DNA of 64,000 nucleotides, taken from Dioscorea cayenensis subsp. rotundata. Its lineage: Eukaryota; Streptophyta; Magnoliopsida; Dioscoreales; Dioscoreaceae. Below are positions 1,350 through 59,887 of this stretch, one piece after another. A program made the translations under genes and the position numbers. Within the stretch, counting starts at the first letter, position 1. Every line of letters starts with the position of its first letter. Under the pieces are notes generated by a model. The model did not search any database and was not told the origin of the DNA. It saw only the letters and a list, made by a program, of their open reading frames with translations. The DNA lies in NCBI RefSeq assembly GCF_009730915.1, contig NC_052484.1, forward strand, positions 1,860,001 through 1,924,000, written 5' to 3'.

Positions 1350-1870
1350 GTGAAATAATTAGGTTGTTATGGTTTTGTTATGGTTTTATTGTTTTTGAAT
1401 CCCATTCTGTTGATGGCATTTACCCGAGTGATTGTGTTGTAGTTTAATTCCCACCCGATTGAAAAAAAATAGGAAACTTTCTTACCCTCAATCATTTGTC
1501 TTGGCAATCAGTTCCCCATTTTGTCTATTCTAGTTGCATATTCAATTGAGTTATTAGTTTGTCCTGCTCCTTTTCTTTTTGTGTGGTGTGTGAAATAATT
1601 AGGTTGTTATGGTGAATGCCATTCGTTGATGTCATTTACCCGAGTGATTGTGTTGTAGTTTAATTCCCAATCGATTGAAAAAAATAGGAAACTTTCTTAC
1701 CCCCAATCATTTGTCTTGGCAATCAGTTCCACATTTTGTCTATTCTAGTTGCATATTCAATTGAGTTATTAGTTTGTCCTGCTCCTTTTCTTTTAGTGTG
1801 TTAATGTCAGTGGGGGTCTTAGTTGTGTGAAATAATTAGGTTGTTATGGTTTTATTGTTTTTGAATCCCA
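1350..1870 (+). repeat. Direct repeat of about 240 bp, two and a bit copies, inside the MULE
   Basis: The word GTGAAATAATTAGGTTGTT starts at 1350, 1590 and 1827, giving spacings of 240 and 237 bp. Between them the same order of segments recurs (ACCCGAGTGATTGTGTTGTAG, AGGAAACTTTCTTACCC, TTGTCTTGGCAATCAGTTCC). It lies upstream of the transposase coding region, in what is probably its leader or first intron. Confidence 0.85.
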
Positions 1871-2172
1871 TTTTGGTGACTAACTATGCTGCTTATTATT
1901 GTCTACATATATTTAAGTGGCCATTGCTAATCTCAATTGTAGCCTCAATTATAAATGTCCTGTTTTTTTTTATGTACATGTTATTACCCTACCATAATTG
2001 AGCAGAAAAATACTTTTTGTTACACTTCAAATCAGATTTTTGTTTGTTCTTCAATTGATTGTGGCCAAATGATATATGCCATATGATTTAATTACTTCCT
2101 AGTTTTTCAGTTTTAGATTGTGTCTATATAGTTGATTTTTAATTAATTTACTGAAATGCATGCTTTATTACA

Positions 2173-6071: not shown

Positions 6072-7424
6072 CCAATTACCATTATGAGAGAGTTGCTATG
6101 CAACTGCAACTGCAGTCTTATTGGTTCTATGTATTTTGTATAGAATTTTGGTGCTTCACTGGTTCTAGGTATGTTGTAAAAACTGCAATATTTTGGAAAA
6201 CTGTTTCCAGAATGTCAGTTCAATTTTGTAAACTTGCAGACTTATAATTCTGTGGGCTTGGTATTATGTAAACCTGCAGATAAGAGGGTTAGAATTCTGC
6301 ACACTTATTATGCAACTGCAGTCTTACTAGTTCTATGTATTTTGTATAGAATTCTGGTGCTTCATTGGTTATATGTATGTTGTAAAGACTTCAATATTCT
6401 AGAAACAGTTCAATTTTGTAAACCTGCAGACTTAGAATTCTGCAGGCTTGGTATTATGTAAACCTGTAGATGAGAGGTTTAGAATTCTGTAGACCTAGCA
6501 CACAATTTTGTAAAAAAATTAATTACCATTGAATCAATAGCATATACAGCTTTTTAATTCAGCTTTTTTTCCAGTTTTTTGTAGTGTTCATACAAAAAAG
6601 ATTAAAATGCATACCCACTTTCATTATAGAATAGCATACTTAACAGCCAGTTTTTTCTTCTCCAGATTTTATGGTGTCCATACCCAAATTAATCTCACTG
6701 CAATTTTCTCCAGTTTTTTTTCCTGCTGTTTTTGTAATGTCCAGGTGAAATCTTTAAAAAAATTTGTGCAGTTAATTCAATCCAAAATGAAGATGAGTCT
6801 TATACATTCAGGTTGGAGTGAGTTAATATTTGGTTTTTTTTTGTCAGTATAACATCAGACCAAAATAAAATTCATACTCAAATTCAAAACACAAACACAT
6901 CCATTCATTGAAATCCTACCCTCATTGTTGTGGTACATCAAAGTTATTTTAAACTTAATCAATATGAAAGACAACACAATACACAATGAACCCTAAATCT
7001 ATACCCGCAACCAGCATTCCAGCATCAACCATGCTAAGCCCGCAGATTGAATCAACCAATATGATTTTATAGACAAAATTATGGGACTAAACAATATGAT
7101 CTTGCTACCTAAAAAAAAGAATTAAAACAAACAAGAAAAAAACAAAAACAACTTCCTCCCTCCGTTGCAATCTAGGTTTTGTGCTCTCTCTCCCTTCAAT
7201 TCACTCAACCCTCCTCCTTCTCCAGATCTATATTGCCCGGCCTTCTCTTCTCGAATGAGAGGAATTGCATCTGTTTTTCCGGTGGAGAAATGATGGAAAT
7301 CCATATTGCCTGGCCTCCTCTTCTCAGATGAAAGGGTAGTCCAAGGTGAAGTCCACGTGGCCAGAGTGAAGTCCACATGGTTATTGGGTGATATGGCTTT
7401 GCTAGCGTGGCAACAAAACAATGC
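6072..7424. other. MULE 3' non-coding region with internal duplications
   Basis: I see no coding sequence here. A segment containing CAACTGCAGTCTTA...TTCTATGTATTTTGTATAGAATT occurs near 6105 and again near 6310, and the phrase around AACCTGCAGACTTAGAATTCTG recurs to about 6490. A shorter CCAGTTTTTT-containing unit recurs between 6560 and 6740. Open frames on the minus strand near 7122-7517 overlap the TIR and are not convincing genes. Confidence 0.6.
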
Positions 7425-7581
7425 CCTCAACGGCCACATCAGCTTAAATGACCGGATTTGGTCAGGGTCACCTGCCGTTGAAATAAAAACACAAATGTGG
7501 ATACCTTTTTGATACAAATTAAAGGTGGAATACCTTTTTGAAAAAAATCATAAGATAGGTAACCTACCAAAAAATTTACTC
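7425..7581 (-). repeat. Right terminal inverted repeat of the MULE
   Basis: Read on the minus strand it begins GGAGTAAATTTTTTGGTA and ends GATGTGGCCGTTGAG, mirroring the left end. The following 9 bp (7582-7590) are the right target duplication and differ from the left copy at one position. Confidence 0.9.
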
Positions 7582-16239: not shown

Positions 16240-16545
16240 GAGCATCGATCCTCTACACATGTGAATATATATATATAGAGCATTGATCCTCTACGCATGT
16301 TCACAGATTCGTAATCTGTGAATGTTGCTCTGGGCTGTTGGATTTCAATCCAACGGTTCTGCACTATTTAGTGAACAGTACATAGTGCTTATAAACAGTG
16401 TACAGTAAAAGATAGAATGAACAATATTTTCCAAAATTAGATTAATCAACCCAATTAACACAAGATTAACTCTCACTATACATTATCTTAATTCTACTGT
16501 TGATGTCTGTGGACGTCTGTGTACGTCCACAAAAACCCTTTTCTC
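16240..16545 (+). mobile_element. Micron-like hairpin element in (TA)n, copy A (with a 5' fragment in front)
   Basis: The full copy is 16278-16545, lying between a TA tract and another TA tract. A 26-base fragment of its 5' end precedes it at 16240-16265. It starts GAGCATTGATCCTCTACGC and ends ACAAAAACCCTTTTCTC. Three hairpins are visible: 10 bp stem TTCACAGATT/AATCTGTGAA (16300-16322), 8 bp stem GTTGGATT/AATCCAAC (16337-16354) and 8 bp stem GTGGACGT/ACGTCCAC (16509-16530). Copies B and C keep all three stems in the same order. It has no coding capacity and no long TIRs. The architecture resembles rice Micron elements, which sit in TA microsatellites. Confidence 0.75.
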
Positions 16546-16562
16546 ATATATATATATATATA

Positions 16563-16866
16563 CTCCTTTTGTCCCTTTTGTTTTGAAGCTATTCTTTGTT
16601 ACTTTTTACTTATCAAATTAGAAATTTTGTACAGTATTAAATAACTTTTCCCAAATTTACCCTTTAATTTAATGTACTTATACAATTTTCAATAAAACAA
16701 ATCAACTAAATATTAAATTATACTTACCATAAGTGTGGTTTTAAATAGGGATAATTTTGTAAAGTAATAGATTTTTATAAAATATAAGTAATTAATTAAT
16801 TTTAACTAATTTTTTTTTAATCGGTGTGAATTAGTTAAATGTGATAACTAAACAAAATAGAGGAGT
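16563..16866. mobile_element. Stowaway-like MITE
   Basis: It begins CTCCTTTTGTCCCTTTTG and ends ACAAAATAGAGGAG, approximately inverted, with TA on both sides as expected for the Tc1/mariner-related Stowaway group. The reverse complement of 20505-20822 matches it through most of the interior (CAGTATTAAATAA, ATTTACTCTTTAATTTA, TTTTCAATAAA, GTGTGAATTAG). A more decayed relative may lie at about 15790-16110 (AGTCCCTCTGTCATTTT). Confidence 0.65.
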
Positions 16867-17099
16867 ATATCCAATAATTGTGAAATTATATATATATATT
16901 GTTTATCATACTCAGTATCATAGACCAAATGTGTGAGGATTTTACAATTATTGGATTTGAATACTGATCTACAGGACGGCCGTCGTTAGATTTCTTATGC
17001 GCCTAACATGATCCACCCTCTATATATATATATTTAATCTTAATTTTATCCCCCAAAATTCACTGTTTTGAAAACTTCGTTCTGGGAAAGACATTTGGC

Positions 17100-18170
17100 G
17101 ATTTATAATTGGGTAAATGTTGAACATAAGTTAATTAATAACACTACCAAGTACCAACACCACCTAATCCTCCTTCTCACCGTCCTCTTCGCCAAACCCT
17201 ATCCCTAGCTGGTGCCGGCACGATCCTCTTCTCGAGATCTCCTCTCAACCCCTCTGCTTTCTCTCTTCAAACTCTTCCTCCTTTTCTCTCCTCCTCCTTG
17301 ATCTTCTTTTCAATGATTTCAGACATAGCAACGGGGACATTCTTTGAGATTCGGACTTCTGATGAGCCGATCAAAGATCGGCGACCTGCTAGCGATGTGC
17401 AGCTTCGATGATTCCTTTTCTAGGAATCGATGCTATGTGCGAGCAGAAATTCGTAGTGAAGGAAAGGAGCCATACAGAAATTGATATTTCTGTTCTCCTG
17501 ATGATCATGGCCGGCACTGGAAGCAGAAAGGTTTAATCGCTTCTTGAAATTGTTGGGTGTGTTAGGGTTTTGTTTAATCATTTACTTGATTTCTTTGTTC
17601 ATAGACATGGAGGATTGTTGGGTGTGTTCTGTCGCTGCTTCAAGAGCTATTGAGCCATATTGATTGTATTCTTTGATTATTTATCAAATTTCATTGGTTG
17701 TGTCCAATCCCTCATTCTTTTAATTAGGGTATCAGCATCAGAGATGAGGGAGAGGATTGGGTCGGTGACTCCAAAAGTGGTGGCAAAGAAACTCTCCATC
17801 TGTACCTTCCACGTGTTCTGTTTGCAGCTCTATCGATCGTTGACACACAAGAAAGTATGACATCTCTTCAGTTTTAGTGCTTATTTTTTCTTGACTGGGA
17901 AAGGGAGACGTCCGTCGGGAGTAGATGGGAGATGGGAGTGAGAGACTGAGAAGGAGAATAAGAGCGGTGGTGGTCAACGAGCCATCCATGGGTTACTGAA
18001 GAAGAAGAAGAAGAAGAAGAAGAAGAAGAAGAAGATGATGAGATCATGGGAAGTGAAATGTTCAATGAAATGACAAAGTGGTGTGTAGCGTGGGGATAGT
18101 GCCGTGGGTATACTCTAGCGTTGTTGCTTTCTCTTTCTCTCTTTATTTTTATCTGCGTTTGCAAAAACTT
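17100..18170. other. GC-richer island with possible transcribed remnant, not identified
   Basis: This stretch has gene-like composition (CTCCTTCTCACCGTCCTC, CTGGTGCCGGCACGATCC) in AT-rich spacer. Short open frames on both strands could be pieces of exons, such as a 32-codon frame starting MISDIATGTFFEIRTSDEP near 17312. I recognise no family and cannot link the pieces by splice sites. A (GAA)n run lies at about 17998-18034. It may be a leader or non-coding transcript, a gene fragment carried by a transposon, or a decayed gene. Confidence 0.4.
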
Positions 18171-18179
18171 TCAGGATGA

Positions 18180-20270
18180 TGAATTTTTAGTTTGAAAAAT
18201 GAAATTTGGATGTCATATAAAATGTTTTTTTTATTGATACCCATATTTATTAATTTTATTAAAAACAAAAAAATCAGTTTATAAGTCAGATACGTTGAAT
18301 GATGTTAATTGATTATCCTTTTATATTTTTAAATTTAAATGAGGTGATAAAACGGTATTGTTGTTGGTGTGGAGATAAGGTGGTGATGAAGTTGGTGTAT
18401 GATTGAGTAGATTTTGGATGTATATAAAAAATTTATTTAATTTAAACGAGAAGAGAAAGAGGGATTTACTCATATGGTAGAAAGTTTTTAATAGTTTTTT
18501 GTTTTTTTTTTAAATATTAAAGTTTGGTTAAACTACTCTTCTTGCAAAAAGGTCCATTTAGAGGGATTATGAATTTTTTTGGGGGAGTTAATATATCCAA
18601 ACCTATATTGGAGCATGTCAACATTTGGATTTTTTTAAGTGCTAATTTATTTTAATTTCTTTTGACAAATTAGTAATAAACATTTTTTTTTATTTATTTT
18701 AATTTTTCTTCTAAAAGTGAATTTAAAATTTAGTTTTGTTAGTTTAAGAAGAACCTAATACAATATTTTTTCTCTTCATTTTTTAAGTTAATTTAAATAT
18801 TTTTTATTTTTATTTTAAATTTGGTTTTATTTGTTTGGTTTTGTTCCGTAGAGGTATAAAGTTAGAGAGAAAGATATATTTTCTTCATTTTTTACATTAT
18901 ATTTTTCGCTCTCATAATTAGTATTTAAGATTTGATTTTGTTAGGTTTAATTTTGCGTCACTAGCATACCGGCGGTGATTAAGAAACAAATGTTGAAATG
19001 AAAAAAAATATTTATTAATGTTTGGCTGCATGAGTTAAAATGTGCAAAAACATCCACTATTATGGGAAAAAAATTTAGGGATAATTTCCTGAATCAGAAA
19101 AACATGCATACGATAAACATGTCAAAATTTACAATACAGATTTGGTAGTGATGTTGACCCAGATTTTGTACACATGTCAATCCAAGACTGAAGAAAGAAT
19201 AAAAAATTACAACATCAATTATCAGCCAAACAAACCCCACAATGCAAGACACTAGGCCAAACCAAGAGATAAGGGAGCAAGCATCCTCCATGAAAATTGT
19301 TTTAAACATACCAGATTTTTTTTTCATAAAAATTGTTTTAAACAACATATATGGAGGTTTGTGTCTTAATAATGTTCCGCCAACCCAATAAGAAGATGGC
19401 TCACTATCATAACTGATATGAATCGAAGAAAAGTAGATATTGTGGTCAAACAAGGGGATTTGATTTGACTTTAACGTCTAACTTGCACTTATTTCTACAA
19501 CTTGCCAAAAGAATTAGGTGTTTCTTCCAATCTTATGTCCATATAATAAAATAAAATCATATCTAGACATATTTGTATAGAATTTGTTGAGAGGTGTTGT
19601 CATATAACCCACAAAATCTTTTGCTACGTAAACCATTAAATTTTTTGTTCATGTAATTGTTATTTACTACCCACTTATAGACAGAGTCAGAGTATTAGTA
19701 TAAATTATTATATTATAATTTAGTTTTTTTTAAACCGGAATTCATCACCTCCCTCTTATAAAAAAATATTATTTGAAGCCATTATTTGTTATTCTCATTT
19801 AGATATTAAGTAAAAAAGATTAACTAAGCAAGTAATAATTGAACGATCTCTCTCTCTCACTCTGTTGTTTCTCTATTCCTGCAGATCAGTGTACCATCAA
19901 AAATTATTTTTCCTTTCAAAACATTGAAATGAAATCATTTTCATTATTCAATAAATAATATAACATATTCCAGAAATATATTTCTCAACCTTTCACATCT
20001 TGCAAATATACTTCTCATATTGAAAACGATTTACAAAAAAAATGACATGAACAAATTTTTTTTCAAAATTTATACTATCTTTGTAATCTTCCTTTTAGAT
20101 ATGATTAACCCGCAGCGTTAGCGCCGGTACATAAATCTAGATATATATATATATATATATACTCATTAAATAAAGGGTATAGCATGATGTAATCCATTAA
20201 AAATCCAACGGTTGAGGATCATCATTTTCTGAATTTGAATTTATGAATGCACGAGAAACACATGCTCGTA
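18180..20270. other. AT-rich spacer without recognised gene
   Basis: I find no supported coding region. Open frames on the minus strand near 19094-19453 have no recognisable similarity and poor composition. A TA-bounded segment at about 20160-20275 contains AATCCAACGG, a word also found in the hairpin elements, and may be a further fragment of that family. Confidence 0.5.
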
Positions 20271-20278
20271 TATATATA

Positions 20279-20494
20279 GAAAAGGGTTTTTGTGGACGTA
20301 CACGGACATTTACAGACAGCAACAGCAATTGAGTAGGAAAAAAATACTGTTCATCCCACTTTTTTACTGTACATTATTTATAAACACAGTATTATTGTTC
20401 ACTGAATAGTGCAAAACAGTTGAATTGAAATCCAATGGCCCAGAAACAACGTTCACAGATTATGAATTTGTGAACGTGCGTAGAGGATCGATGC
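20279..20494 (-). mobile_element. Micron-like hairpin element in (TA)n, copy B
   Basis: Read on the minus strand it starts GCATCGATCCTCTACGCACG and ends ACAAAAACCCTTTTC, and it is bounded by TA tracts on both sides. It keeps stem 1 with mismatches (GTTCACAAATT/AATCTGTGAAC), the TTGGATTTCAATTCAA word of hairpin 2 and the terminal GTCCGTGTACGTCCAC region. Between hairpins 2 and 3 it matches copy A in TGCACTATTCAGTGAACA and TGTACAGTAAAA. Confidence 0.72.
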
Positions 20495-20504
20495 ATATAT
20501 ATAT

Positions 20505-20822
20505 ACTTTCTCTGTTTTTCTTAGTTTTTAACTTTATCTAATTCACACTGATTAAATAAAATTAGTTAAAAATAATTGATTATTTATATTTTATAAAAAA
20601 ATTTATTACTTCTCAAAACTATTCCTATTTAAAACTCCATTAGTAGAGTATATAATTTAATGCTTAGTTGATTGTAATTTATTGAAAATTATATAAGTAT
20701 AATAAATTAAAGAGTAAATTTAGAAAGAATTATTTAATACTGTATAAAGTTTTTAATGTGGCAAGTAAAAAAGAACATAGAAGAGTTTCAAAATGTAACA
20801 ACTAAAAAAAACAGATAAAATA
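20505..20822 (-). mobile_element. Stowaway-like MITE, diverged, minus orientation
   Basis: The reverse complement aligns with 16563-16866 over most of its length. The ends are CTTTCTCTGTTTTTCTTAG on the left and CTAAAAAAAACAGATAAAA on the right, an imperfect inverted pair within TA-rich flanks. It directly abuts hairpin copy B, as copy A is abutted by its relative, but the order and orientation do not fit one inverted duplication. Confidence 0.55.
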
Positions 20823-21255
20823 TATATATATATATATATATATAATAGACACTTGCATTTAAATTTTGGTTCAATGATTATGTTTGCATCACTATATAAA
20901 TACTATTTATCACACTAAATATTATAAATAAAATATTATTTATCATACCAAACACAATAAATAAAACAAATAATACTTTATAGCCATTGAATTTGAATCC
21001 AACGTCATATCTTTGAATTTCTTTGTCCTTAGATTTCGTATATAAATTTGTGCACGTAAATGACCCACTCTCATATATATATATATATATATATATAAAT
21101 ATAATATCAGAGTTTTACAGGGGTGTAAATGTGAAAAGGAAGAAAAATAGAAGGCAAGTTTGCCACGTTTATGTCATCCTAACACTGCAAGCAAAGTAAA
21201 AGGAAGGAAGAAAGGTGGAAGCTTTGAGCGAGCAATCCAATCTTGATCCCCAACC

Positions 21256-22546
21256 ATGTCGTCTCCCAGCAAGCGCCGTGAGATGGACCTCATGAAGCTG
21301 TAGATTCTCTTCAGATCTTCTCCTTTTTTGTGTTTTTTTCAGTGATTCTTTTGGTTTTCTGGTTTGATTTTTATGGGGGTTTTCTTTTCGTAGAATGATG
21401 AGTGATTACAAGGTGGAGATGATCAATGATGGAATGCAAGAGTTCTTTGTTGATTTTCATGGTCCCAATGACAGTATGTTACTCTTTATCCTCTCTCTCT
21501 CTCTCTCTCTCTCTCTTGGTTTCCTTTTTGATTTTGCAATGCATGGAGTTTATTGGAAGTGATTTTGTGTTTTTTCTCTTTTGGGTGATTTGTATGGTTT
21601 GTTTCTGTTTCTGGATCATTTTTTTATAAGAAAGTTTGGATCTTTGTTAGATTTTTATATCAGAGTTATGAAAACTTGATTTTTTTATGTGATTTTTCTC
21701 TTGTTTGGATTAGGGATTTGGATTTAATTTTGGTGATTTTTTATTTGTTTTGTTGTGGGATTATTTGATAGGTTTGTATCAAGGGGGAGTTTGGAGGGTG
21801 AAAGTTGAACTCCCTGATGCTTATCCTTACAAGTCTCCATCCATTGGTTTTGTCAATAAGATGTATCATCCTAATGTTGATGAAATGTGAGCTTTTGATG
21901 TAATAGATCTCACATTATTTCACTGATTAGAGTAAGATTTTAGAACAATGATGATGTTTGTGGATTTCAGGTCTGGTTCTGTTTGCTTGGATGTTATCAA
22001 TCAAACTTGGAGCCCTATGTTTGGTGAGATATTGTTTATCAAACCCTGTTTAGCATTATATTTATTGGTTGCTTTTCTTGTCAATTACAAGTGTTTTTGA
22101 TTGTTTCATTTTAATTTATCAGATCTTGTGAATGTTTTCGAAGTCTTCCTACCACAACTTTTGTTATATCCTAATCCTTCTGATCCATTGAATGGAGAGG
22201 CTGCAGCTCTGATGATGCGTGATCGACCTATTTATGAGCAAAGGGTGAAAGGTGAAGTTAACATTTTTAATTTTTTGTTTCTGTTTGTACAAAATTATTG
22301 TTAAGGATGAGTATGAGCATAACATGTTTGTTAAGTGATTGAACGGGAACTGACCATTGATTCGACTCCTTCCTTTAGGCTTGATTGTATTTCTGAGCTG
22401 CCATTGTATTCTTTTGTGAGCAAATGATTAAGCTTATGATAGATTTAAGTTTTCTTTTTTAATGTTTATTGTAGGTTGTTACGGTGAACTAATCGAACAA
22501 AAAATTGTGCATGGTGAATTAAACTTGCTTGGTTGTTTTATATATG

Positions 22547-22578
<32 letters not shown>

Positions 22579-23615
22579 CTTAAATGTAGAAGACCTCCAT
22601 TGATTTACATGCATGGTGATGTTGGAGGAAAAGATGTGTCGAGCTTGTGCATGTGTATGTTCTTTGTCTGCCTATATTACTTGGTGAATTGGCGAGATAT
22701 TTAATTCAATTTAGTGATTTGTTTGTCTTTGAGATGAAACATGTCTGCAATAACAAAACTAAGTTTTCGGGTCTTGAGACAATCATCATAATTGTCCAAA
22801 AGTATTAGCTTGAAATTGTTTATAGGACATCAACTCTGATGATCAATAGAGAAATGACATGCACCTTTTGTTTCAATGTTAGTTAATGTCTTCACTAACA
22901 TGTATGTCGATTAGTGTTAAATTAGTGTTAAACTAACCATTCCGTGATTTTTAGATGTTATCACTTTATGTCTTTCTTAAATTAAGTTGATATAACTTGT
23001 ATGTAATTTGCTTCAGTTCCCGTTGTTGTTTATTATTGAGAAATTCATTAATCCTAATACTTCAATTCGTGTATTTCATGAAACTTTCTTTTCTTCGAAT
23101 AACAAGTTGTATCATCTTTTATTTTAGTGTATTTGAGTACCTAATAGTCTTATATCGGTTAATTTTAGTAAATATGAATTTAAACATATAACTTTTGCTT
23201 TTTCATCCTATTAGCTTAAGCTTATGGATTGAATTGAGCTCAGATACTACGCATTTAACACCGTATCAAAGCTTAGTTTCTCTAGTTTGTTTGGAACATG
23301 GTGAAAATCAATTAATTTGGAAAATACGCATTTGAATATATAAGTCTGGATTTATCATTTGAACAACTTAAGTTTTTAGCCCACATAATATGTTTGGCAT
23401 AAACCGGACAAATTTGTTTATGTAAAAGACTTTATCAATTTTTTTTTTTTTAATTTAGTGTTTTACTATTTTATCATCCAGAATACTGTGAAAAATACGC
23501 AAAGCCGGAGGATATCGGTGCGCCTTCGGAGGAGAAATCGAGCGACGACGAAGAGCTAAGCGATGCGGAATACGATTCCGGTGATGACGCTGTGGTTGGC
23601 AAAGCAGACCTTTAG
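21256..23615 (+). CDS. UBC5: E2 ubiquitin-conjugating enzyme, UBC4/5/6 (yeast Ubc8, UBE2H) type
   Basis: Exons: 21256-21299, 21394-21473, 21772-21886, 21971-22023, 22123-22251 and 23482-23615; total 555 bp, 184 residues. All introns are GT-AG with continuous phases. The protein starts [20 protein letters not shown] and has the UBC fold through about residue 150. The active-site cysteine is Cys85 in [15 protein letters not shown], after the HPNVDE motif, which carries Met where plant relatives usually have Leu. The C-terminal tail is acidic ([17 protein letters not shown]), typical of this E2 group. It accepts ubiquitin from E1 and passes it on with E3 ligases in cytosol and nucleus. The plant clade has several near-identical members, so the number in the symbol is approximate. 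The last intron (1.2 kb) contains a TA tract at about 22550. Confidence 0.95.
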
Positions 23616-23824
23616 CTTCAAATCATTGACTCTTCTCTGTACATTGTGATTCAATTTCATAAAGAAAATGAATGTCTCATTCAACACAGTTTCATTCATC
23701 ATTGTAAATAATTGTGTGTACTCTTTCATGGTATCATGTTTGTACTCTGATTCAAATTGTTAAAAATAAAATTTAACTTAAAACTCTGTATTAAGTTCCA
23801 TTTGCAAAATGATGTGTATATTGT

Positions 23825-23859
<35 letters not shown>

Positions 23860-26800
23860 TATTGTGTTTTATGATTGTCGAAATTGTTAAAATGACTACT
23901 TTACCCTTATTTTTATTATTTATAAGGGGTTTTTATTATTATTATTTTACATGTATTCCTCTTGTAAAAATCTTGAATTACTTTTGTATCTTTATAAATT
24001 ATTATTTTATAAAAATTTTTGAATTTATTTTAAATTGTTTTAATTGTAGGGGTATTTTATGGGTATGCAAACAAATACATAAATTAGAAAAGGTATGGTT
24101 ATAGTTTTTGAATTAACAAAGAGCTTTTTTTATGATTAAAATTAAGAATAAAAATGAGTTATTTTACTTTCCATTTAGAAAATAGTTTTTTTTTAAGCCA
24201 TCAATAAAAGTAACAAAGTTTTTTCCTTCATTAGATAAAAATGAGCAATTTTGCTCTTTGTTCCAATATTTTTTTTAATCCTTCAATAAAAAGAAAAAAA
24301 AAATTCTTTTCCTGATTACAAAATGAATTTTTTTAGTATATTTCAAAAGAACCAAAATGAACTTAAAAAGAAAAACTTGGATAAAATTTCAAATAATAAA
24401 TACAAAAACCATGAATTAAATAAACCTTTTGATTTGGATTATTAAGTACAACTCCCTAGAAATCTAACAAGCTCCATTCCAACCACCACATGATTCATGA
24501 AACCTTAAATAAATAAATAAATAAATAGACGACAATTATAAAAAAAAAATAGATAAAAGGTGAAAGTGCATTTTAGTCTATAAATTATACCTTTTAATTC
24601 AGTATAATTTTTTAATTTTAAGAAATACTTCATTTTGATTTTTAAAATAATAAAAAAATACAAAAAATAGTTTTTGAACTAGATTAAAAAGGAGTGATTT
24701 TACTCCCTAAATTCAAAAACAGTCCTTGAACTTTTTTCTCTTTTTTTTAATCCTTTAACAAAAATAGCAATTTAGATTTTCACAGAACAAACTTGGATAG
24801 AAATTCAAATAATAAATACACAACCAATGAATTAAATTTACCACATGATTCATGAAACCCTAAACCAACAATAAAAAAATTAAAGTTTAATCCACTCCAT
24901 TAATGATCAAGTACCAACTTTATTGGTGATTGGGAAATTATTAATAGGTCCTCTGAACCCTAACCCTAGGCCATGGGCTCTAATTAGGGTTTATTTTATT
25001 GTAATCTTCCAGCTTAGTTGCTGTACTTATTTTAAAACCAAGAGTTTATGGTTCTCATTATGTGGTTGACTGCTTTACAGATGTAGTCTAACATGAGAGC
25101 CACCACCTTCCAACATGGCTCAAGAACCAAGATATTAATCAATATATATATACATATTGGACTTTGTTTTTACATTTATATCCCTTGCTAAAAATATAAC
25201 TGATATTTTAAGTATAATATTGATATGTCTTTCTACATATGTTTGTCAATTTGATGCTCAAACACAGGAAAGGTGAGTGAATTAATTTTTATACTAGAGA
25301 AATAAGGAGAAAAGTTTGAAATAAATAATCAAGTTTTGTGTTAGTTCAGGAATGATATATGATTGATTTTTCCTAATTTAGAGACTTAATGATTTTTTTT
25401 TAAGTGATAAGCGTTGTTAGTCAAAGAACATGCATGCACCGGTTTCAATGACTTGCAGATTTATTAGAGATAAATCCCTTTTATGCAAACTGGAGTGGAG
25501 GAAAAGTACTCTTTGGACAGTCTTTTCACTGGGTTTTTTGTGCATTGTGAGTTGAGGGGCTCGAACTCCAAAGTCATAATTCATAAGGCACGGTGGGTAT
25601 CACTAGGGTATGCCCAAGTTCCTTAATGAAGGATTTCATGAACTAAGTTGATTAAAAAAATATTTACATTAACTTATATATATATATATATATATAATAG
25701 ATATAAAACATTTTTAAACTAGAGAAATAAGGAGAAAAGTTTGAAATAAATAATCAAACTTTGTATTAATTCAGGAATGATATATGATTGATTTTTCGTA
25801 ATTTAGAGATTTAATAAATTTTGCTTTTATGAAAGTGGCAAGCAATATTAATTATAGGATATTGAGGTACTAGTTACGGTGACTTATAAACTTTTTAGGG
25901 ATAAATCTCCTATTATGCGATTCTGGATAGGAGGAAAAGTACTCCTTGCACAGACCTCCAATATTTCATGACTTAAATTGATTAAAAAGTTGTATATATA
26001 TATATATAGAAAAATTCATAATTATTTATATTTAAAAATATTAGAGATACATTAAGCATATATAAGTACTCAAAAATTGATTTGATATCTAAAAAACATT
26101 ATCATCAAAGCGAAAAAATAAAAATAAAAAGAGTAAAAAGAAAGAAAGGAGGCTAATATATATATTGTTATGAGAAAAAACCACTTCAATGAAGAGAGAA
26201 AAAATAGCTTTGTATATACATGTACCAATAAATAAATAAATAAATAAATAATCATCCAAGAATGGTGGCCATATGCATAACCTTATATTTTTAAGGGGGT
26301 ATATAAGTAATTTTGTTAAGATTATTTTAGGTAGAACATTTTGAATCTCATTCAAGTATGAAGGAGATTAATGAATGAATAGTGTGTATGAAATTTCAAG
26401 GAGGCATACACATTTAGGGTTCTTTATTAGGGGACCCTCTTCCTAACTGTGTGCCATGTGTGTCTCTTAATCTTAAATTCATTGAGCTTTACTAGTGTAC
26501 AAAAGATGCATGTGTTCTCAAGGCAGAAGCATCTTCCCTCCATCCTTAAATTGCTTGTTTTAGGATTTTTAAATTTTCAGTTGGATCGAAGAATACAAAG
26601 TATATAACACCTAAATATACACTATAATTGTAAATTATATCGTGCTAGTACATAACATATAATTCGAACAAATAATTAAGACTGAGTATTTCACTGATTT
26701 TTATAATTATTTTTTTATTAATATATGATTTTTTTCTCTCATTTTATTTTTATCAGACGAATGAATACTATGCATATATTTACAGATGATGAAAAAATAT

Positions 26801-27440
26801 TTGTATTATCACATCAATAAGCATAATCATATAGGTGAAAAAAAAAATAATTTTTCCACATAATGTATTACAAATAAAATAAAATAAACTAAATAAAAGT
26901 ATTGAAATTATGAACTTAATATTCTTAAAAATAACCATTTTTATTATATCTTCTTAATAAAAATATCTTAAATGACAACATGTCAAATATTCAATTAAAA
27001 CATAAATAAGATACAGGATGAAATTAAACTCTCGATCTTGAAAAATAAGATAAAAATGAAATACCAACTAAACTAGATCAATTTTATGTCGATTTATTTT
27101 AATTTATTAGTTTAAAAACAGAAAACAAAAAACAAAAAACAAAAATTCTATCAAAAAAGAAACTGATGTTAGAATGTGAAACAAGAGTTTGAAAGTCAAA
27201 CATTGTGGGAGTTAAATCAGAATAATGAATGCATATTGTGGAGTTTAGTGCACCTGTCTTTGTCCTTGCACTATATAACTTTTTTCACTTTTCTCTGAAA
27301 CTTTTCTTCTGATCACTCATCCACTAGACTTTCTCAAGAGACAAAAACAAACATATATAACTGATTTCATTCTTTCATTGTGTTATGTTTCTTTTCAATG
27401 GACCACTGAGTTTAATTTTAAAATTTTTATATATTGTTGG
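23616..27440. other. AT-rich spacer between UBC and the TIR-NBARC-TPR gene
   Basis: I find no supported gene. It holds (TA)n tracts (about 23827-23855, 25676-25697 and 25995-26008), a (TAAA)n run at about 26230-26250, and the direct repeat listed separately. Open frames on the minus strand around 26070-26355 are low-complexity Phe/Tyr/Leu strings from T- and A-runs. Confidence 0.6.
25290..25955 (+). repeat. Diverged direct repeat of about 230 bp
   Basis: A block starting CTAGAGAAATAAGGAGAAAA occurs at about 25293 and 25717. Both copies continue through GTTTGAAATAAATAATCAA, CAGGAATGATATATGATTG, GATAAATC and AGGAAAAGTACTC. The spacer between them contains a TA tract. The copies differ by substitutions and small indels, so the duplication is not recent. 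The element type is unknown. Confidence 0.75.
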
Positions 27441-27442
27441 TC

Positions 27443-27764
27443 AAAATATCAAAATAGCCCCTCTATTTTATATTTTTTTGCTTTTTTTAGTCCCTCTAAT
27501 ATAAAATATATTTTTTTTGGTCTCGTATTTTCACATTTTTATTTTTTTGGTCTTTATAATTGACGGATCTGCCTTTTGATCCTTCCAGCTGATAAATTGG
27601 AGAGACAAAAAAAAGAAAAATATATAAATATGAGGACCAAAAAGAGCGGATTTTACAACTAAAGGATGAAAATGTATAAATACGAGGACTAAAAAGGTGA
27701 ATTTTATATTAGAGGGACTAAAAAGGATGAAATCGTAAAATAGAAATGACCATTTTGATATTTA
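27443..27764. mobile_element. Foldback element upstream of the TIR-NBARC-TPR gene
   Basis: The left end AAAATATCAAAATAGCCCCT and the right end, inverted AAATATCAAAATGGTCATTT, pair. Further inside, TAGTCCCTCTAATATAAAA pairs with its inverse TTTTATATTAGAGGGACTA, and TGGTCTCGTATTT with its relatives on the other arm. The element is about 320 bp without coding capacity. I could not find a convincing target duplication, so the class is open. Confidence 0.7.
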
Positions 27765-27839
27765 CACCCGTGAGTTATTGGTGTAAATTATTATTGATTT
27801 GTAATTTCTTTGTTTTTCAGGGGGGTTTGTGTAATATGG

Positions 27840-28601
27840 GATCTGATCTTGAAATATATATATATATATATAAAGAGAAGAGTTGCTTTTGCTTTGAAGG
27901 TTTGAGAGAAGAAGAAGAAGAAGAAGGAATTTTTCTTTTTGGTGAGTTTTCGATTTTATTTTTGCAGGAAAAGAAGGAATTGGAGAAAAAATGTGAGTTT
28001 ATTCTGTTTCTTTTTAATCAAAATCTTAACTTTTTGCATGATTGTGAAGTTTTTTTGTTGTGTTTGTTTGAGTGTTTGTTTTTTGTGTGTTTGATTCTTG
28101 GAATGTGTTTGTTACTGCTGGGACTATTGAAAAGTTTGGATTTTTTAATGAATAGAAATGAGAAGTTTGTGATCTTTGAGTTTGGTGGTCTTTGTTTGCT
28201 GAAAAACTTCAGATCTGGAACTTAGTTGATGGATTTTTTTAGGTTTCATTGATGAATGTTCTGTGTTTCTCTTGTTGAATGTGAATTTCTGGACTGTAGA
28301 TACCAAAAGATTTGATTTTTATTACTATTTAAGTGTTTTTATTTGGTGTTTATGTGTTGATTTCTTTTATTAGAATGCTATAAGTTTCAATTTGGGTTTA
28401 TTATTTTTCTCCCAAAAATGCTTGTGAGACGGTGAACTAGATCTTTAGGGATTGGAAAACCTCAGTGTTTGCTAATAGAATTAGATCTTGTTCTAGTGTT
28501 TTCATTGAATGAATTCATTTGATGTTTCAGAGGGTATCCTTGTATAGAATGCATGGAAATTCCAAGATTTTGAGAGCTGGATACCGAATGAAAATGGATA
28601 T
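27840..28601 (+). promoter_or_regulatory. Probable 5' leader with introns of the TIR-NBARC-TPR gene
   Basis: A TATA-like run at about 27857-27871 is followed by a GAAGAA-rich leader. Plausible leader splice sites are a GTGAGT donor near 27940 and a TTTTGCAG acceptor near 27968, then a further acceptor TGTTTCAG at about 28529 just before the coding exon. The open frame across this stretch (start near 27746) is low complexity and not supported as protein. Transcript data would decide. Confidence 0.45.
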
Positions 28602-31553
28602 ATGGAGCTTGAACAAGAAAGCTCCAAGCTGCCCGGCGCTTTATCCGCCACGGCCTCAAGAAATCTCTCGTCGTCTTCTTCGGCATTTGTATCTGCAAGT
28701 CAGTCTCCGTTCTTCTCTCCACGCTCTCCCCAGTTCAATGTATCTGAGATAATCCGATCAGACGATGCAAACTCTTCAACCTGCAATGTTACAAGTGGTG
28801 ATCCTCTTAGTTCCAGTGCTTTAATCCGACGATTGGAATCTTCGTCCAATGCCAAATTTCTGGCATCTGATTCCCCTTGTAATCCAATTTGCGATGCCGA
28901 TGTTTGTAGTGGTCAAGGAACAAGTAATGCTGATACGAGGCGACGAGAGAAACAGAAGAAAATTTTGAGAAGTCCCGGGAAGTGTTCACTTGCTCCGTCT
29001 TCAACATCGGTTTCTTCAACTAGCAGGATAAGGAGTTGTGATGTGTACATAGGCTTTCATGGCCGGAAACCATCTTTGCTTCGATTTGTTAAATGGCTTC
29101 GCGCGGAGTTGGAAATGCAAGGGATTTGCTGTTTTGCATCGGATACAGCTCGATGCAGGAATTCCCGGAGCCATGATGCTGTGGAAAGGATGATGAATTC
29201 GGCTTCGTTTGGAGTTGTGATTCTTACAAAGAAGTCGTTTGGGAATCCTTACAGCATTGAGGAACTCAGGAACTTCTTGGGCAGGAAGACTTTGGTTCCT
29301 ATATTTTTTGATTTGAGTTTTGTCGATTGTCTCGCCAGAGATATAATTGAGCGGAGGGGAGAATTGTGGGAGAGGCATGGTGGTGAATTGTGGATGCTTT
29401 ATGGTGGAGTAGAGAAGGAATGGCGAGACGCTGTGGAAGGGCTTTCGAGAGTGATAGACTTGCAGTTGGAGGCGAATGATGGTAATTTGAGGGAATGTAT
29501 ATTCAAAACGGTGACACTTTTGGCTACAAGAATGGGACGGCGAAACATGGTTGATCAGGTGAACAGGTGGAGGGAGCAGTCGGAAAAGGAGGAGTTTCCT
29601 TTTCCTCGAAATGAAGAATTTGTCGGACGGATAAAAGAACTCTCTGAGCTTGAGCTTATTCTGTTTGGAGATGTCAGTGGTGATGCTGAAAGAGAATACT
29701 TTGAACTCAAAACAAAGCATAAGCGAAAGAGTTTGAAGATTGGGAAGGCTGAGCACCGGCGAGAAGAAGAAAGTACTAAAGATCAGCAGTCCGAGAGCAG
29801 TAACAAAGGGAAAGATCCGATCATTTGGATGAAGTCTGACAAGGAAATTGAGATGCAGAGAGTGGTTGGTGGCACTCCGCAGAGGAGTTTCCGAACTTTT
29901 AGAACGAAAAGTGGAGGGAAATATAGAAGGAAAAGATCGGTGAAAATCTTGTATGGGAAAGGCATTGCTTGTGTTTCGGGAGACTCGGGGATTGGAAAGA
30001 CTGAATTGGTTTTGGAATATGCTTACCGGTTCTCACAAAGGTACAAGATGGTTCTTTGGGTCGGTGGCGAAACAAGATACATTAGGCAGAGCTATTTGAA
30101 TCTTCGTACTTTTTTGGAAGTCGATTTGAGCACTGAAAATCACTCTCTTGAAAAAGGGAAAGGGAAGTGTTTCGAAGAGCAAGAAGAGGATGCCATTGCC
30201 AAAGTACGGAAGGAGCTCATGCGCGACATTCCTTTCTTAGTTGTGATCGATAATTTGGAGAATGAGAAGGACTGGTGGGATCAAAAGGTTGTGATGGATC
30301 TTCTCCCTCGATTCGGTGGTGAGACTCACTTCATAATTACAACTCGCCTTCCTAAGATAATGAACTTGGAGCCAATGAAACTTTCATACTTATCGGGTAT
30401 GGAGGCGATGACTCTGATGAAGGGAAGTGTCAAGGACTACCCAATTATGGAAATTGATGCTCTCCGTGTGATCGAAGAGAAACTCGGCAGGCTTACACTT
30501 GGTCTTGGAATTGTTGGAGCGATACTTTCCGAGCTCCCGATCACTCCAAGCAGACTCCTCGACACTATAAACAAAATGCCAGTCAGAGATTTGGTGTGGT
30601 CTGATCGACAATCTGTAATTCTCAGACGCCCGCCTTTTCTCATGCAACTTATCGATGTTTGTCTTTCGATATTTGATCATGCAGATGGGCCGCGGAGCTT
30701 AGCGAGCAGAATGGTTCAGGTGAGCGGTTGGTTTGCTCCAGCCGCTATTCCAATCCCGCTTTTAGCAATGGCCGCACACAAAGTTCCCGGGAAGCATCAT
30801 GGCGCTCGAGTCTGGAAAAAATTCCTCCGAGCAATAACTTGCAGCTTCACATCATCTCGAATCAAAAGGTCAGAATTCGAAGCATCTTCAATGCTGACAA
30901 GATTTGGCATTGCAAAAACCTGCACCAAACCTGACAGCGTCCAATTTCACGAGATCATAAAGCTGTATGCTCGGAAAAGAGGATCAATTCGAGTAGCTCA
31001 AGCCGTCGTTCAAGCAATTTGCCTCAGAAGCTCACTATCTCTATGTTTCGAACACCAATGGGCAGCATGCTTCATGCTCTTCGGTTTCAGTACCGATCCG
31101 GCGATCGTGCAGTTAAAACCATCAGAATTGTTGTTCTTTGTCAAGCGTGTCGCTCTACCTCTCGCCATTCACACATTCATCACATTCTCTCGTTGCGCTG
31201 CCGCATTAGAATTACTTCGTCTTTCCACCGATGCTTTAGAAAATGCCGCAGAAGCCATGGTCACACAAGCAGTAAAATGGCTTAAACGATCTTATTGCTT
31301 TACCGGACCGATACATTCCGATGTTCGATACACATATCTTTGGCAAGAATTGGCACTGTTGAAAGCTACATTACTAGAAACAAGAGCGAAACTAATGCTT
31401 CGAGGCGGGCAATACAGCATCGGCGAAGACCTTATTCAGAATGCAATATTTATCAGATCATCGATACACGGCGACCATCATCCTGACACGATATCGGCTC
31501 GCGAAACTCTTAGTAAACTCACTCGTCTTCTCACAAACTTTCAAGTTACTTGA
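28602..31553 (+). CDS. TIR-NBARC-TPR protein of the conserved XTNX (TNP) class, intronless CDS
   Basis: One 983-codon frame. Residues 1-145 are Ser-rich and low complexity. A TIR domain begins at Cys146 (CDVYIGFHGRKP) and contains SFGVVILTKKSF and NPYSIEELRNFLGRK; the Glu in IEEL lies where TIR NADases have their catalytic Glu. The NB-ARC-like NTPase follows: Walker A GDSGIGKT at 460-467, kinase-2-like FLVVIDN at 545-551, and TTR at 580-582. The C-terminus is helical and ends in a TPR-like unit with GDHHPDT, as in kinesin-light-chain-type repeats. There is no LRR. This is the ancient low-copy XTNX/TNP class found in both monocots and dicots, distinct from classical TNL resistance proteins. 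Its function is poorly known; a role in signalling or cell death is inference. A nearby upstream ATG at 28594 is out of frame. A long minus-strand frame at 29016-29756 is a shadow. Confidence 0.93.
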   Translation: MELEQESSKLPGALSATASRNLSSSSSAFVSASQSPFFSPRSPQFNVSEIIRSDDANSSTCNVTSGDPLSSSALIRRLESSSNAKFLASDSPCNPICDADVCSGQGTSNADTRRREKQKKILRSPGKCSLAPSSTSVSSTSRIRSCDVYIGFHGRKPSLLRFVKWLRAELEMQGICCFASDTARCRNSRSHDAVERMMNSASFGVVILTKKSFGNPYSIEELRNFLGRKTLVPIFFDLSFVDCLARDIIERRGELWERHGGELWMLYGGVEKEWRDAVEGLSRVIDLQLEANDGNLRECIFKTVTLLATRMGRRNMVDQVNRWREQSEKEEFPFPRNEEFVGRIKELSELELILFGDVSGDAEREYFELKTKHKRKSLKIGKAEHRREEESTKDQQSESSNKGKDPIIWMKSDKEIEMQRVVGGTPQRSFRTFRTKSGGKYRRKRSVKILYGKGIACVSGDSGIGKTELVLEYAYRFSQRYKMVLWVGGETRYIRQSYLNLRTFLEVDLSTENHSLEKGKGKCFEEQEEDAIAKVRKELMRDIPFLVVIDNLENEKDWWDQKVVMDLLPRFGGETHFIITTRLPKIMNLEPMKLSYLSGMEAMTLMKGSVKDYPIMEIDALRVIEEKLGRLTLGLGIVGAILSELPITPSRLLDTINKMPVRDLVWSDRQSVILRRPPFLMQLIDVCLSIFDHADGPRSLASRMVQVSGWFAPAAIPIPLLAMAAHKVPGKHHGARVWKKFLRAITCSFTSSRIKRSEFEASSMLTRFGIAKTCTKPDSVQFHEIIKLYARKRGSIRVAQAVVQAICLRSSLSLCFEHQWAACFMLFGFSTDPAIVQLKPSELLFFVKRVALPLAIHTFITFSRCAAALELLRLSTDALENAAEAMVTQAVKWLKRSYCFTGPIHSDVRYTYLWQELALLKATLLETRAKLMLRGGQYSIGEDLIQNAIFIRSSIHGDHHPDTISARETLSKLTRLLTNFQVT

Positions 31554-32023
31554 CTCTTTTTGTAAAATTTTCCTTCATAGTTAGCAATGTATTCTTTGAT
31601 TCAGTTTCTCTTCAAATAATAGCAAAGTTTTCAGAAACATTTTTGTTTCATCTCTTTAATTGAAACTTATTTTTTCCTAAATTTGATTCAAAGTTGTATA
31701 TGATCTTTTTGCATAGATGGTTAATTTCACTTTTTGAGAAAATTGCTTGCATAATCTTGTAGGAGTTGGTAATTGCTTTCAGGCTGTTGTAAGTATTATA
31801 TTTGTGCATATACTGCTATAAAACACTATTAATTGTTTGTATACCTCTGTTGTTAAAAATCAAATTTTTTTTAAAAAAAATCTGTAACTATTAAAAATCA
31901 ATTAATGTGCTTTGTTTTTGAAAAACTATCAATTTTATTTGATAGGAATTTAATTTTTTTAAAAATTAAATGGTATGATTTATATTTAGTTTTATAATTT
32001 ACATTTTATCGTTAACCAAAAGA

Positions 32024-32107
32024 GTCAGGATGGCCGAGTGGTCTAAGGCGCCAGACTCAAGTTCTGGTCCTCGTGAGAGGGCGTGGGTTCAAATCCCACT
32101 TCTGACA
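32024..32107 (+). tRNA. tRNA-Leu(CAA): tRNA-Leu (anticodon CAA), intronless
   Basis: 84 bp class II tRNA. The acceptor stem pairs GTCAGGA with TTCTGAC (one G-T pair) and the discriminator base is A at 32107. The A-box is TGGCCGAGTGG. The anticodon arm is CCAGA-CTCAAGT-TCTGG, giving CAA. The long variable arm CCTCGTGAGAGG is typical of tRNA-Leu. The T arm and B-box include GGGTTCAAATCCC. A short T run (ATTTTTAG) follows within ten bases as a Pol III terminator. Confidence 0.97.
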
Positions 32108-32114
32108 TAATTTT

Positions 32115-34950
32115 TAGTTTAAAACCTAAAGCTTTTTTGTATGTACATTTATATCAATTAAAGTTATTTTCTTAGTTTTTTTATTTCTTAATTATTTTAA
32201 ATAATCATTTTTATTGTTTTATTTACAACATGGTCTTTTGTAGTTTATAGTTTTATTATTTTAAAAATAAAACATGTTTTTTTTAAGATAAGCAGTTAGA
32301 CCGTTAAAAGAATTAAAGGCATGCATAAGTTTTAGAGAAGCAAATAAAGAGGTCCACGTACATGTGGATGCTAGAATTATCTACATATAACTATATTACT
32401 CATTTTTCCAAAATTGTGAAAAAACCATAATTCGAAATCAAACCACATTTGAAAGGTTTTAATAGGACTCAACCACCAATAAAACGATTTCCTCGTTATT
32501 TTAAAAATAAAATATTAGACAATGATTTCTATTGCTCATAAGTCAAACAAAATATTAGCACTTATAAATAAAATAAAAATTTGATGAGTTATTCCATCAA
32601 AAATAATTAAAAAGAAAATAATACCAAATCATTCATGTCTTTGATTTCTTTTTATGTGACATATGAGCCGACATTAATACTTTTTTTTTTCTACTCTTCA
32701 AATTTATCTACGTTTCTTTAACTAATTTAATGTTTTAATAATTTTATTAATTTATGTAATTAATGCAATTTATGAGTATCCATAAAAAAGTAATAATATA
32801 AATAATTTGAAGACAATTAAAAAAATTTATAATTAATATAAATATATACATATTTTTGTTTGAAAATTTAATGTAGTAGATAATCAAGTTTTTATTGCCT
32901 ATTTGGTATTCATTAGATTTTATAACTTAAAGTTTGATATTATGTTGTTATATAAAAAATTAAATAAAATTTCTAAAGACTTACTTTATATTTCATTTTG
33001 AGGATACATTTTAATAGAAATATCAAAAATATCTCTAGTCCCTAGTGACGATGAGGGTGCGATGGGGTGACACTAAATGCAATCTTACAGATATAGTCAC
33101 AAAAAAGACCGAACTAATTATAACTTAATTTTGATCATAAGGTTCTAAAACTACCCAAGCCTTTTTGGTTTTTTTCTATTCATTAATTTTAATGAAATTT
33201 ATTATTCAATATCTAATAGTTAATTCAGTTTAAATTTAATTTGATGATATGTGTACATGAAATCATGTAAACACTTGATTTATATTATTATCTTCATAAA
33301 ACATACCAGAATAACTCTAATAACACTAAAATATATTGATATTTTAGATAGAATTGAGACATTTGATTCCCTTTAGTGGGCAAAGCCATGGATTCTACTT
33401 CCGGGAATTAACTTGATTCAATTTAGACTTTGGGAAAATACTAGTGGAAAAAACTAGAGAAAAAAATATTTTAAAAATGATGGAAAGAAAAAAGTAAATG
33501 AAAAGGTTACAAAAGCCGGCTTTTAATTAGTCAAAGTGTCAAACACAAAAGAACAATCCCTCACATCCAAACTTAATACATATAAATAAAAATTTTTGGG
33601 TCTTTGCTTCATCCAAAGAAAATTGGATTGTAACTCTTTCATTTGGTTTGGATTCTTATTATTATTATTATTATTATTATTTGACAAATGCAAACTAGTG
33701 TGTATGCAGTCAGGGACATACATGTGCACGGGATAATATCAGTTTGCATGTACACCCTCACGCGGCTGACATGGTTATTGAGTTGTAAGCTCATTTTCAC
33801 AGCTGGGGACCTTTGCCACTATTGCACATTTTAAATTCGGACAATAAAAACCTTAAAAACCAAGTCTTACACAATGGGTCAATACTTCTAGATCAAAGAC
33901 ACTAGGTAGTTGGTTTGTATTTAAAGTACGGACTTATTCTATATACTAAAATGTATAAGTTTTAATTAATAAATTTAAATAATTGGACTATGTCTAACTG
34001 ATATTATTATTTTTAGTCAATTTAAACCAATTTTATTAAAAAAATCAGAAAAAAAATGGGGATGAGTTTTAAGGGATATGTTTTAAGTTTTGTATTATTA
34101 ACCACAGATTTTGTTTATACATACTACTCTTATTTGTTGTCTATTGTTATAATAACCTAATATTTTTACTTCAACAATGCATCCAAGATGCTATTATCTT
34201 TATGCCAGTATATATATTTTTCCTAATTATTTATCTATAGTTTGGTTAAATGATATATCAAGCTCAAATCCTTAACTTTTAAGCACATAATAAATATTTT
34301 CCATTCTAAAATCAAGGAAAATAATGCTATGTGATTGGAAATAACTCCATATAAAGTATTCAAATCATCATGTGTTGAAATTACAGTCATAGCAGCCAAC
34401 ACTAATCATATAGATGAATCAAACTAGGATTTGTTGTCTTGTAAACCTTTTTTATTTCATGTCTAAGTTCATCCCCCAAGTTAGGATTTTTTTTTAATAA
34501 AAAAGAAATAATCACACCTACCATTGCATAATAATAGTCATCAAATCATTAAAAAATTTTTGATGAAATTAATTACTGTCACAAAATAGCAAGTGACCTA
34601 AGATAAACAACTCATATAATTTAAAATTCACAGTTAAATTGGTTATTGTCATATCTCGTCAAATGACATTAGAGAAACTAATAAAAGAAATTATATTTTT
34701 AATAAAACATTCTAATTTTACATATGATTTTTCTAACTCGCATAAATGTTTTATATCGGTTGCTAACTACTATGTCATCAAGTGACTAATTGCCTTGACC
34801 TTCATGCACTTGGCAAACGTTAACCCTTATATATAGTCTTATAACTTTATGAAAACATATTTTCAATAATAGCCACCCCAATCTAGTCACTGCAATTGAC
34901 TTCTGGATCCATTATTTTTATTCAATGGGGCAAAGTTTATTATATATATA
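32115..34950. other. AT-rich spacer without recognised gene
   Basis: I find no supported coding region or clear element ends. A (TTA)n run lies at about 33655-33680. Short open frames nearby are composition artefacts. Confidence 0.6.
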
Positions 34951-34958
34951 TATATATA

Positions 34959-35233
34959 GAAAAGGTTCTCTGTGGACGTGCATACACGTCCACAGAGCGC
35001 TACAGGAATACTAATCTTTAGCTTCAGTGAGAGCTAATCCTAGATTAATGAATTCATTAGTTTTAATTTTTGGTTTCTATCTGCGATCCCACTTTTTATC
35101 GCTATTCTGCTTTTATAAAGTCGCGATAGCATGATGTTTATTAAATAGTGTCCGAATCAGCTGGATCGAAATCCAGTCTGTCCGAAAGAACGCTCACGAT
35201 TTTTAATCATGAGCGTACGATGTAGGATTGATC

Positions 35234-35236
<3 letters not shown>
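34959..35236 (-). mobile_element. Micron-like hairpin element in (TA)n, copy C
   Basis: It is bounded by TA tracts on both sides; the right one (about 35237-35276) is among the longest in the window. Read on the minus strand it starts GAGGATCAATCCTACATCG and ends CAGAGAACCTTTTC. It is the most divergent copy, yet stem 1 is kept by compensating changes (CGCTCATGATT/AATCGTGAGCG), hairpin 2 is CTGGATTTCGATCCAG, and hairpin 3 is GTGGACGT/ACGTCCAC with a six-base loop. Sequence changed while pairing stayed, which suggests the hairpins matter. Confidence 0.72.

Positions 35237-35278
<42 letters not shown>

Positions 35279-59652: not shown

Positions 59653-59698
<46 letters not shown>

Positions 59699-59845: not shown

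Positions 59846-59887
<42 letters not shown>

Follow-up and report, generated by a model that had tools for sequence, protein, structure and literature searches.

Three-hairpin elements in (TA)n microsatellites of Dioscorea cayenensis subsp. rotundata: a probable Mutator-like mini-transposon family with a 9-bp target duplication

Three short elements lying within (TA)n microsatellites were analysed in a 64,000-nucleotide stretch of the Dioscorea cayenensis subsp. rotundata genome (the window; C14:1860001-1924000) and compared with their relatives in the whole assembly of 584 Mb and 2,249 contigs (C-numbers denote contigs and L-numbers denote fetched genomic loci). Judged by its genes and types of element, the window is plant nuclear DNA. 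Copies A (16278..16545, plus strand), B (20279..20494, minus strand) and C (34957..35236, minus strand, with its lower boundary at 34957 or 34959) are very probably non-autonomous members, similar to miniature inverted-repeat transposable elements (MITEs), of a Mutator-like element (MULE) family that inserts by a 9-bp staggered cut with a preference for (TA)n. They seem to represent a new family within a familiar class of element, the Mutator-like mini-transposons, and not a new mechanism. Direct reading bore out the preliminary description of this DNA, which had placed A, B and C (the last at 34959-35236) directly between TA tracts. These tracts occupy 16265..16277 (5') and 16546..16562 (3') around A, 20495..20505 (5') and 20269..20278 (3') around B, and 35237..35276 (5') and 34941..34958 (3') around C. 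Copy A is full length with GAG...CTC ends, and copy B carries an internal deletion and is followed by TA instead of TC.

The family is dispersed over the genome. Searches with copy A and copy C gave at least 45 matches (40 of 251 candidates scored) and at least 50 matches (40 of 66 candidates scored), respectively, and these copy numbers are lower bounds. Motif counts in the genome were 44 for exact 3' ends and 58 for 5' ends with up to 2 mismatches, and shortened motifs that include 8 flanking A/T bases gave 28 and 47 matches, the latter for the 5' motif; the reversed control patterns gave 0 in each case. The copies are small, non-coding and spread over many contigs; their ends are shared, and their flanks mostly differ. 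Flanks were read in L001-L109 and the window for matches that began at model position 5 or earlier and reached position 264 or beyond, and identical elements with identical 25-bp flanks were counted once, which reduced 78 matches to 60 distinct full-length copies. Partial or rearranged matches (e.g., L027, L029, L036/L051, L038, L039, L048/L054, and L055) were left out, and duplicated loci (L028/L034, L065/L075, L068/L076, and probably L007/L008) are still contained in the set. The (TA)4 motif was detected within 20 bp on both sides of 38 of the 60 copies, as in a TA-microsatellite-targeting group, on one side of 15 and on neither side of 7, and 2.0% of window 20-mers contain (TA)4. With 53/60 copies bordered by (TA)4 on one side or both, and with their genome-wide dispersal, the earlier suggestion of a mobile, (TA)n-dwelling family like rice Micron is supported.

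The TA phase across the elements was odd without exception where it could be read most cleanly. Element ends were defined as GAG...CTC; both were intact in 31 of the 60 copies, and 11 of these 31 have pure-TA 9-mers on both sides. All 11 were in odd phase, that is, the last base upstream was the same as the first base downstream of the element, and none was in even phase. Odd phase in all 11 follows directly from a 9-bp cut, whereas an insertion that duplicates nothing, or only 2 bp of TA, would leave the opposite phase. Slippage leaves the phase unaffected because it moves whole TA units, and a wrongly placed element end is not the explanation because copies with A on both sides and copies with T on both sides were both found. 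Tc1/mariner-type insertion, with its 2-bp TA duplication and even phase, does not fit (0/11 even). Copy A illustrates the odd phase (9/9 at k=9, 0 at k=8 and k=10). Copies with altered ends were odd in 9/10 cases, L023 being even, and motif matches paired by coordinates, which are largely the same loci as the flank set, were odd in 12/13 cases. The lone even case among these 13 comprises the outer flanks of a three-copy array (L078), which enclose more than one element.

Copies in imperfect TA DNA reveal the length of the duplication. Nine of the 20 intact-end copies with imperfect flanks matched in 8-9 of 9 bases at k=9, and the same rule gave 5 matches at k=7, 1 at k=8, 1 at k=10 and 4 at k=11; flanks swapped among copies matched at 9.7% for k=9. 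These nine copies represent 7 loci when duplicates are removed (L034 of L028; L068 of L076). Duplications of 9/9 were found at L076 (TTACAATAT), at L044 (TTTATATAA), and at L009 and L077. Read from the assembled flanks, the family leaves a 9-bp target duplication hidden within the TA repeat. The preliminary description had reported no usual target duplication, a statement that the imperfect-flank copies (9/20) and the pure-TA copies (11/11 odd) overturn. A target duplication of 8-11 bp, mostly of 9 bp, is what defines MULE-derived MITEs, and the terminal inverted repeats (TIRs) that likewise define them are present in degenerate form. Positions 4-26 of the 5' end, compared with the complement of the 3' end, agreed at a mean of 12.4/23 in 27 copies, which are kin and hence not 27 independent tests; shuffled sequences gave 5.5 with a standard deviation of 2.05. 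The elements had been said to lack TIRs, and this no longer holds for these 27 related copies.

These features suggest how the elements could move. A transposase of the MULE (mudrA) type, acting in trans, would recognise both ends, namely GAG followed by the ~23-bp degenerate inverted repeat, which on either side leads into a subterminal hairpin, and a cut-and-paste transfer would insert the element through a 9-bp staggered cut, preferably in (TA)n. Repair would then create the 9-bp duplication, invisible in a TA tract and kept as the odd TA phase across the element. The hairpins may be part of end recognition, or they may be relics of longer TIRs.

Several observations weigh against this assignment. 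Eleven of the 20 imperfect-flank copies fit a 9-bp duplication at no more than 7/9: L045, L010, L017 and L098 at 5/9, L078, L065, L075, L013 and L012 at 6/9, L102 at 7/9, and L091, which has 3/9 at k=9 but 10/10 at k=10. AT-rich flanks also increase chance matches, and the two ends share only a brief, imperfect TIR, in which 4 to 15 of 23 positions agree. Furthermore, an autonomous MULE with the ends of the family was not found in a search in which open frames were listed for L088-L096 and 9 of the 47 short-5'-motif matches and the 5' end on C1507 were left unread; the fetched end matches were short, truncated, rearranged or interrupted copies. The window itself contains a MuDR-type MULE (714-7581) with 156-nt TIRs at 91% identity, GAGTAA ends, a 10-bp target duplication (CTCATCTTAT/CTCATCATAT, 9/10), and DBD_Tnp_Mut, MULE and SWIM domains that are spread over more than one frame, owing to introns or to damage. 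It was rejected as a partner, its TIR having no significant match to the family.

In favour of a MULE origin, MULE transposase domains are abundant in the genome (PF10551; 150 scored of 3,312 candidates). Eleven extra 5' ends, compared by eye with the PF10551 loci, had none nearby among the 150 listed of the 3,312 candidates. Another 12 5' ends were found, and the three that were read proved to be two short copies (L110 and L111) and a short TA-bounded unit (L112). Candidates for a longer element were likewise set aside: L097/L074 (1.2 kb) was read as a copy carrying an insertion, L066/L069 as an interrupted copy, and L089 has a 3' end only, with no 5' end within the fetched stretch. The larger autonomous relative that the preliminary description had proposed to look for was sought as a MULE, with partial coverage and with no Rep/helicase search made, and none was found. 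We infer a MULE transposase from the type of duplication and from precedent rather than from a partner element. L076, itself an insertion into non-TA DNA, has next to it in the downstream flank an open frame that resembles, by eye, the beginning of a transposase of the BED zinc-finger (hAT) type.

Clustered copies on contigs C234 and C18, the head-to-tail triple of L078 with its TATAT linkers, and the (TA)4 that borders 53/60 copies on at least one flank would also fit SaTar-type insertion, in which MULE-derived elements travel as circles that contain TA filler and enter TA tracts by homologous recombination, with no staggered cut, as modelled in PMC5907723. Such a route is improbable here, as circles could yield odd phase in 11/11 copies, with A and with T at the junctions, only if their filler had an odd length in either phase, and copies in imperfect DNA show 9-bp repeats around identical element ends. 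A more specific version of the staggered-cut reading is possible, if doubtful: the elements might represent a TA-targeting MULE lineage without long symmetric TIRs that is recognised via two different subterminal hairpins and inserts throughout by a staggered cut, not by circle recombination. If this were true, TA-phase parity would serve as a general proof for SaTar-type families in any genome.

The preliminary description had also pointed to Helitron/Helentron-type non-autonomous elements, which would spread by rolling-circle transfer with hairpin 3 as a terminator. Like these, the yam family has a 3' hairpin near its end (hairpin 3 stops 14 nt before the 3' end), largely asymmetric ends and tandem copies. 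Helitrons are not known to leave a target duplication, and their canonical ends are 5' TC and 3' CTRR. The yam elements differ in their 9-bp duplication and odd TA phase, their GAG...CTC terminal bases and their degenerate TIR, which makes a Helitron origin scarcely tenable; no Rep/helicase search was made. It is just as hard to credit that the copies are immobile fragments that owe their number to segmental duplication or to a TA-associated satellite. Duplicated loci do exist (L065/L075, L068/L076, and L107-L109), but the copies lie on many contigs with precise common ends and mostly unrelated flanks.

The MULE-like family comprises two main subfamilies, a GAGCAT-type (copy A) and a GAGGAT-type (copy C). 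A third form of ~400 bp (L107-L109; C18:23316470-23323770) combines the 5' part of the family with a 3' hairpin of its own; a fourth variant is represented by L106, in a short cluster on C234, and by L111. Three copies were arranged head-to-tail with TATAT linkers at L078 (C8:21667435-21668252), a tandem that may have formed by insertion beside an older copy or through circles. Head-to-head copy pairs with parts of their 5' ends missing were detected at L048 (C15:8591098-8591586) and L067. At L045 (C8:21405388-21405788), tiny copies form an array in which the 5' and 3' ends are fused to each other directly and the linkers are TTTTT. The short TA-bounded unit L112 (C14:1953700-1953990) is family-like only in its first 15 bases; the rest is unalignable and unusually rich in GCG-like words, and L112 is possibly a badly assembled copy.

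The ordered three-hairpin architecture proposed for the window copies was confirmed. Hairpin 1, hairpin 2, hairpin 3 and a CCTTTTC end follow one another in the same order in A, B and C, and the hairpins of A and C fold as single-stranded DNA at z -2.5 to -7.0 relative to shuffles. In copy A (plus strand), hairpin 1 lies at 16300..16322 (z -3.43 for the fold of 16278-16340), hairpin 2 (TTGGATT/AATCCAA) at 16336..16355 (z -2.45), and hairpin 3 at 16508..16531 (z -4.21). In copy C (minus strand), hairpins 1 (35190..35216) and 2 (35161..35176) jointly gave z -4.86 for the fold of 35160-35236, and hairpin 3 (34968..34997) gave z -6.97. A hairpin-3 pattern allowing up to 3 mismatches had 5 matches over both strands of the window, all at A, B or C and including hairpin 3 of A, where shuffles expect 0; the same pattern had 0 matches in viral contigs. 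Pairwise identity was 84% for A and B, 62% for A and C, and 64% for B and C. An nhmmer profile built from A, B and C recovered each at E 1.9e-60 or better, as expected with all three being members of the profile.

Covariation in the stems was examined in an alignment of 46 copies, consisting of 45 of 49 references (without L008, L025, L034, and L057) and copy B. RNAalifold returned a 4-pair structure only. Pairs were then counted in stems named by hand, which were taken from member copies, a choice that favours pairing. The named stems were paired in 89.7% of cells, a value reached by 0 of 500 shuffles (mean, 88.5), and slid versions gave 21.6-36.8%. Cells with both-sided change numbered 16 against 11.3 in shuffles (46/500 reach this value). 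Pairs with both-sided change numbered 10 against 9.2 (212/500), further pair types 40 against 41.2, and the covariation score was 0.106 against 0.101 (62/500). Relatedness alone can exceed such shuffles, and the alignment includes copies suspected of assembly error. What preserves the stems is mainly sequence conservation, and any signal of compensation is weak at best. Two diverged forms provide better support for selection on pairing, both arms being changed in hairpin 3 of L107 and L108 (GGGGAC/GTCCCC versus GTGGAC/GTCCAC in the family; L109 is decayed) and, by eye, in hairpin 1 of L111 (TATAG/CTATA versus CACAG/CTGTG). L108 folds at z -5.0. The expected stem covariation was thus mostly missing within the family and was found in these two exceptions.

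Copy C had been described as preserving its pairing through compensating changes, an argument that loses most of its weight because its divergence largely resembles assembly error and covariation lies near that of shuffles. Both ACAGT and ACTGT are absent from copy C, as they are from L066 and two of the L078 copies, and the other 42 copies contain three to eight ACAGT/ACTGT each, except L063 (2) and L077 (1). Outside the element, the near-identical loci L065 (C11) and L075 (C23) differ in 2/1,037 columns, against 36/173 within the element's 5' part. The differences between L065:1501-1661 and L075 are of CAG/CGA and CTG/TCG style, and L068 and L076 differ alike. Across near-identical loci on different contigs (L065/L075, L068/L076, and the L028/L034 flanks), such changes are clustered and lie partly outside the element, a pattern that suggests systematic consensus errors in the assembly. 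An error that acts motif by motif hits both arms of an inverted repeat alike, so that pairing is kept; strand-symmetric consensus errors in inverted repeats can therefore mimic compensatory evolution. The divergence of copy C is, judged from these sequence comparisons, probably mostly assembly error, with gene conversion as a less likely alternative. No second assembled locus for copy C was found in the assembly. Simple decay is disfavoured by the L065/L075 pattern, and CWG methylation as the cause of error was no more than a guess, 41 of the 56 differences in copy C being outside CAG/CTG.

Real compensatory evolution of selected stems in copy C is unlikely on balance. It would agree with the hairpins of C, which fold as well as or better than those of A, with a paired fraction above all 500 shuffles and an excess of cells changed on both sides, and with the two-arm changes of L107/L108 and L111. 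The near-shuffle values for both-sided pairs, pair types and score, the concentration of L065/L075 differences in the element, and the missing ACAGT/ACTGT motifs, shared with L066 and two L078 copies, all speak against it.

The yam family resembles several described systems. MuTAnT of Medicago truncatula has 218 copies, mostly in (TA)n, of which 14 lie outside perfect TA and have 9-nt duplications (PMC4486113). Its elements are likewise mostly 200-300 bp, non-autonomous and hairpin-forming, but their TIRs are longer, averaging 47 bp and reaching 144 bp in the type copy, their ends are GGGG/CCCC, and a putative autonomous element is described (PMC4486113). The yam family has instead a ~23-bp degenerate TIR, GAG ends, separate hairpins and no partner found. 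Rice Micron was reclassified as the MULE-derived rSaTar2 (PMC5907723), and Micron/rSaTar2 (rice) and SaTar (guayule and rice) are also small, microsatellite-flanked, non-autonomous, often arrayed and MULE-derived (PMC5907723). Compared by description only, Micron differs in that 0/510 copies were tabled as flanked by a target-site duplication (PMC5907723), whereas the yam family shows one. The pineapple Ac-mMITEs are TA-microsatellite MITEs for which no autonomous element was found, and 9/10-bp duplications occur in copies without microsatellites on both sides; they differ in being defined as MITEs through TIRs and in numbering 21,994 full-length copies, which is far more (PMC8449440).

How MULE-derived elements enter TA microsatellites, by a staggered cut or by circle recombination, is debated (PMC5907723) because a duplication within the repeat is not directly readable, and the SaTar paper doubts cut-and-paste for many microsatellite copies (PMC5907723). 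The TA phase is unaltered by 2-bp slippage and thus offers a simple test from assembled genomes, which in this family speaks for a conventional 9-bp cut. No test of this kind was met in the available parts of PMC4486113, PMC5907723 and PMC8449440; no literature search was aimed at it, and newness is not claimed.

Further relatives, the first two of them absent from the preliminary description, may accompany the three copies in the window. A truncated 26-bp 5'-end fragment (16240..16265, plus strand) lies between TA tracts just upstream of A; the nhmmer match was weak (E 0.1), and the fragment has an exact 5' motif with TA flank (C14:1876232). A possible diverged relative (20162..20268, minus strand), also with TA tracts on both sides, adjoins B (nhmmer weak, E 0.81; direct reading). 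Segments at 20845-21072 and 16900-17020 lie between TA tracts, contain a motif resembling hairpin 2, and are possibly further relatives. An Rfam scan of the window at the gathering threshold gave a tRNA at 32024-32107 as its sole match. Two adjacent TA-flanked segments (59696-59849 and 59885-60187) have common blocks that are 70-86% identical and appear to represent a second, unrelated-looking TA-flanked family, also arrayed.

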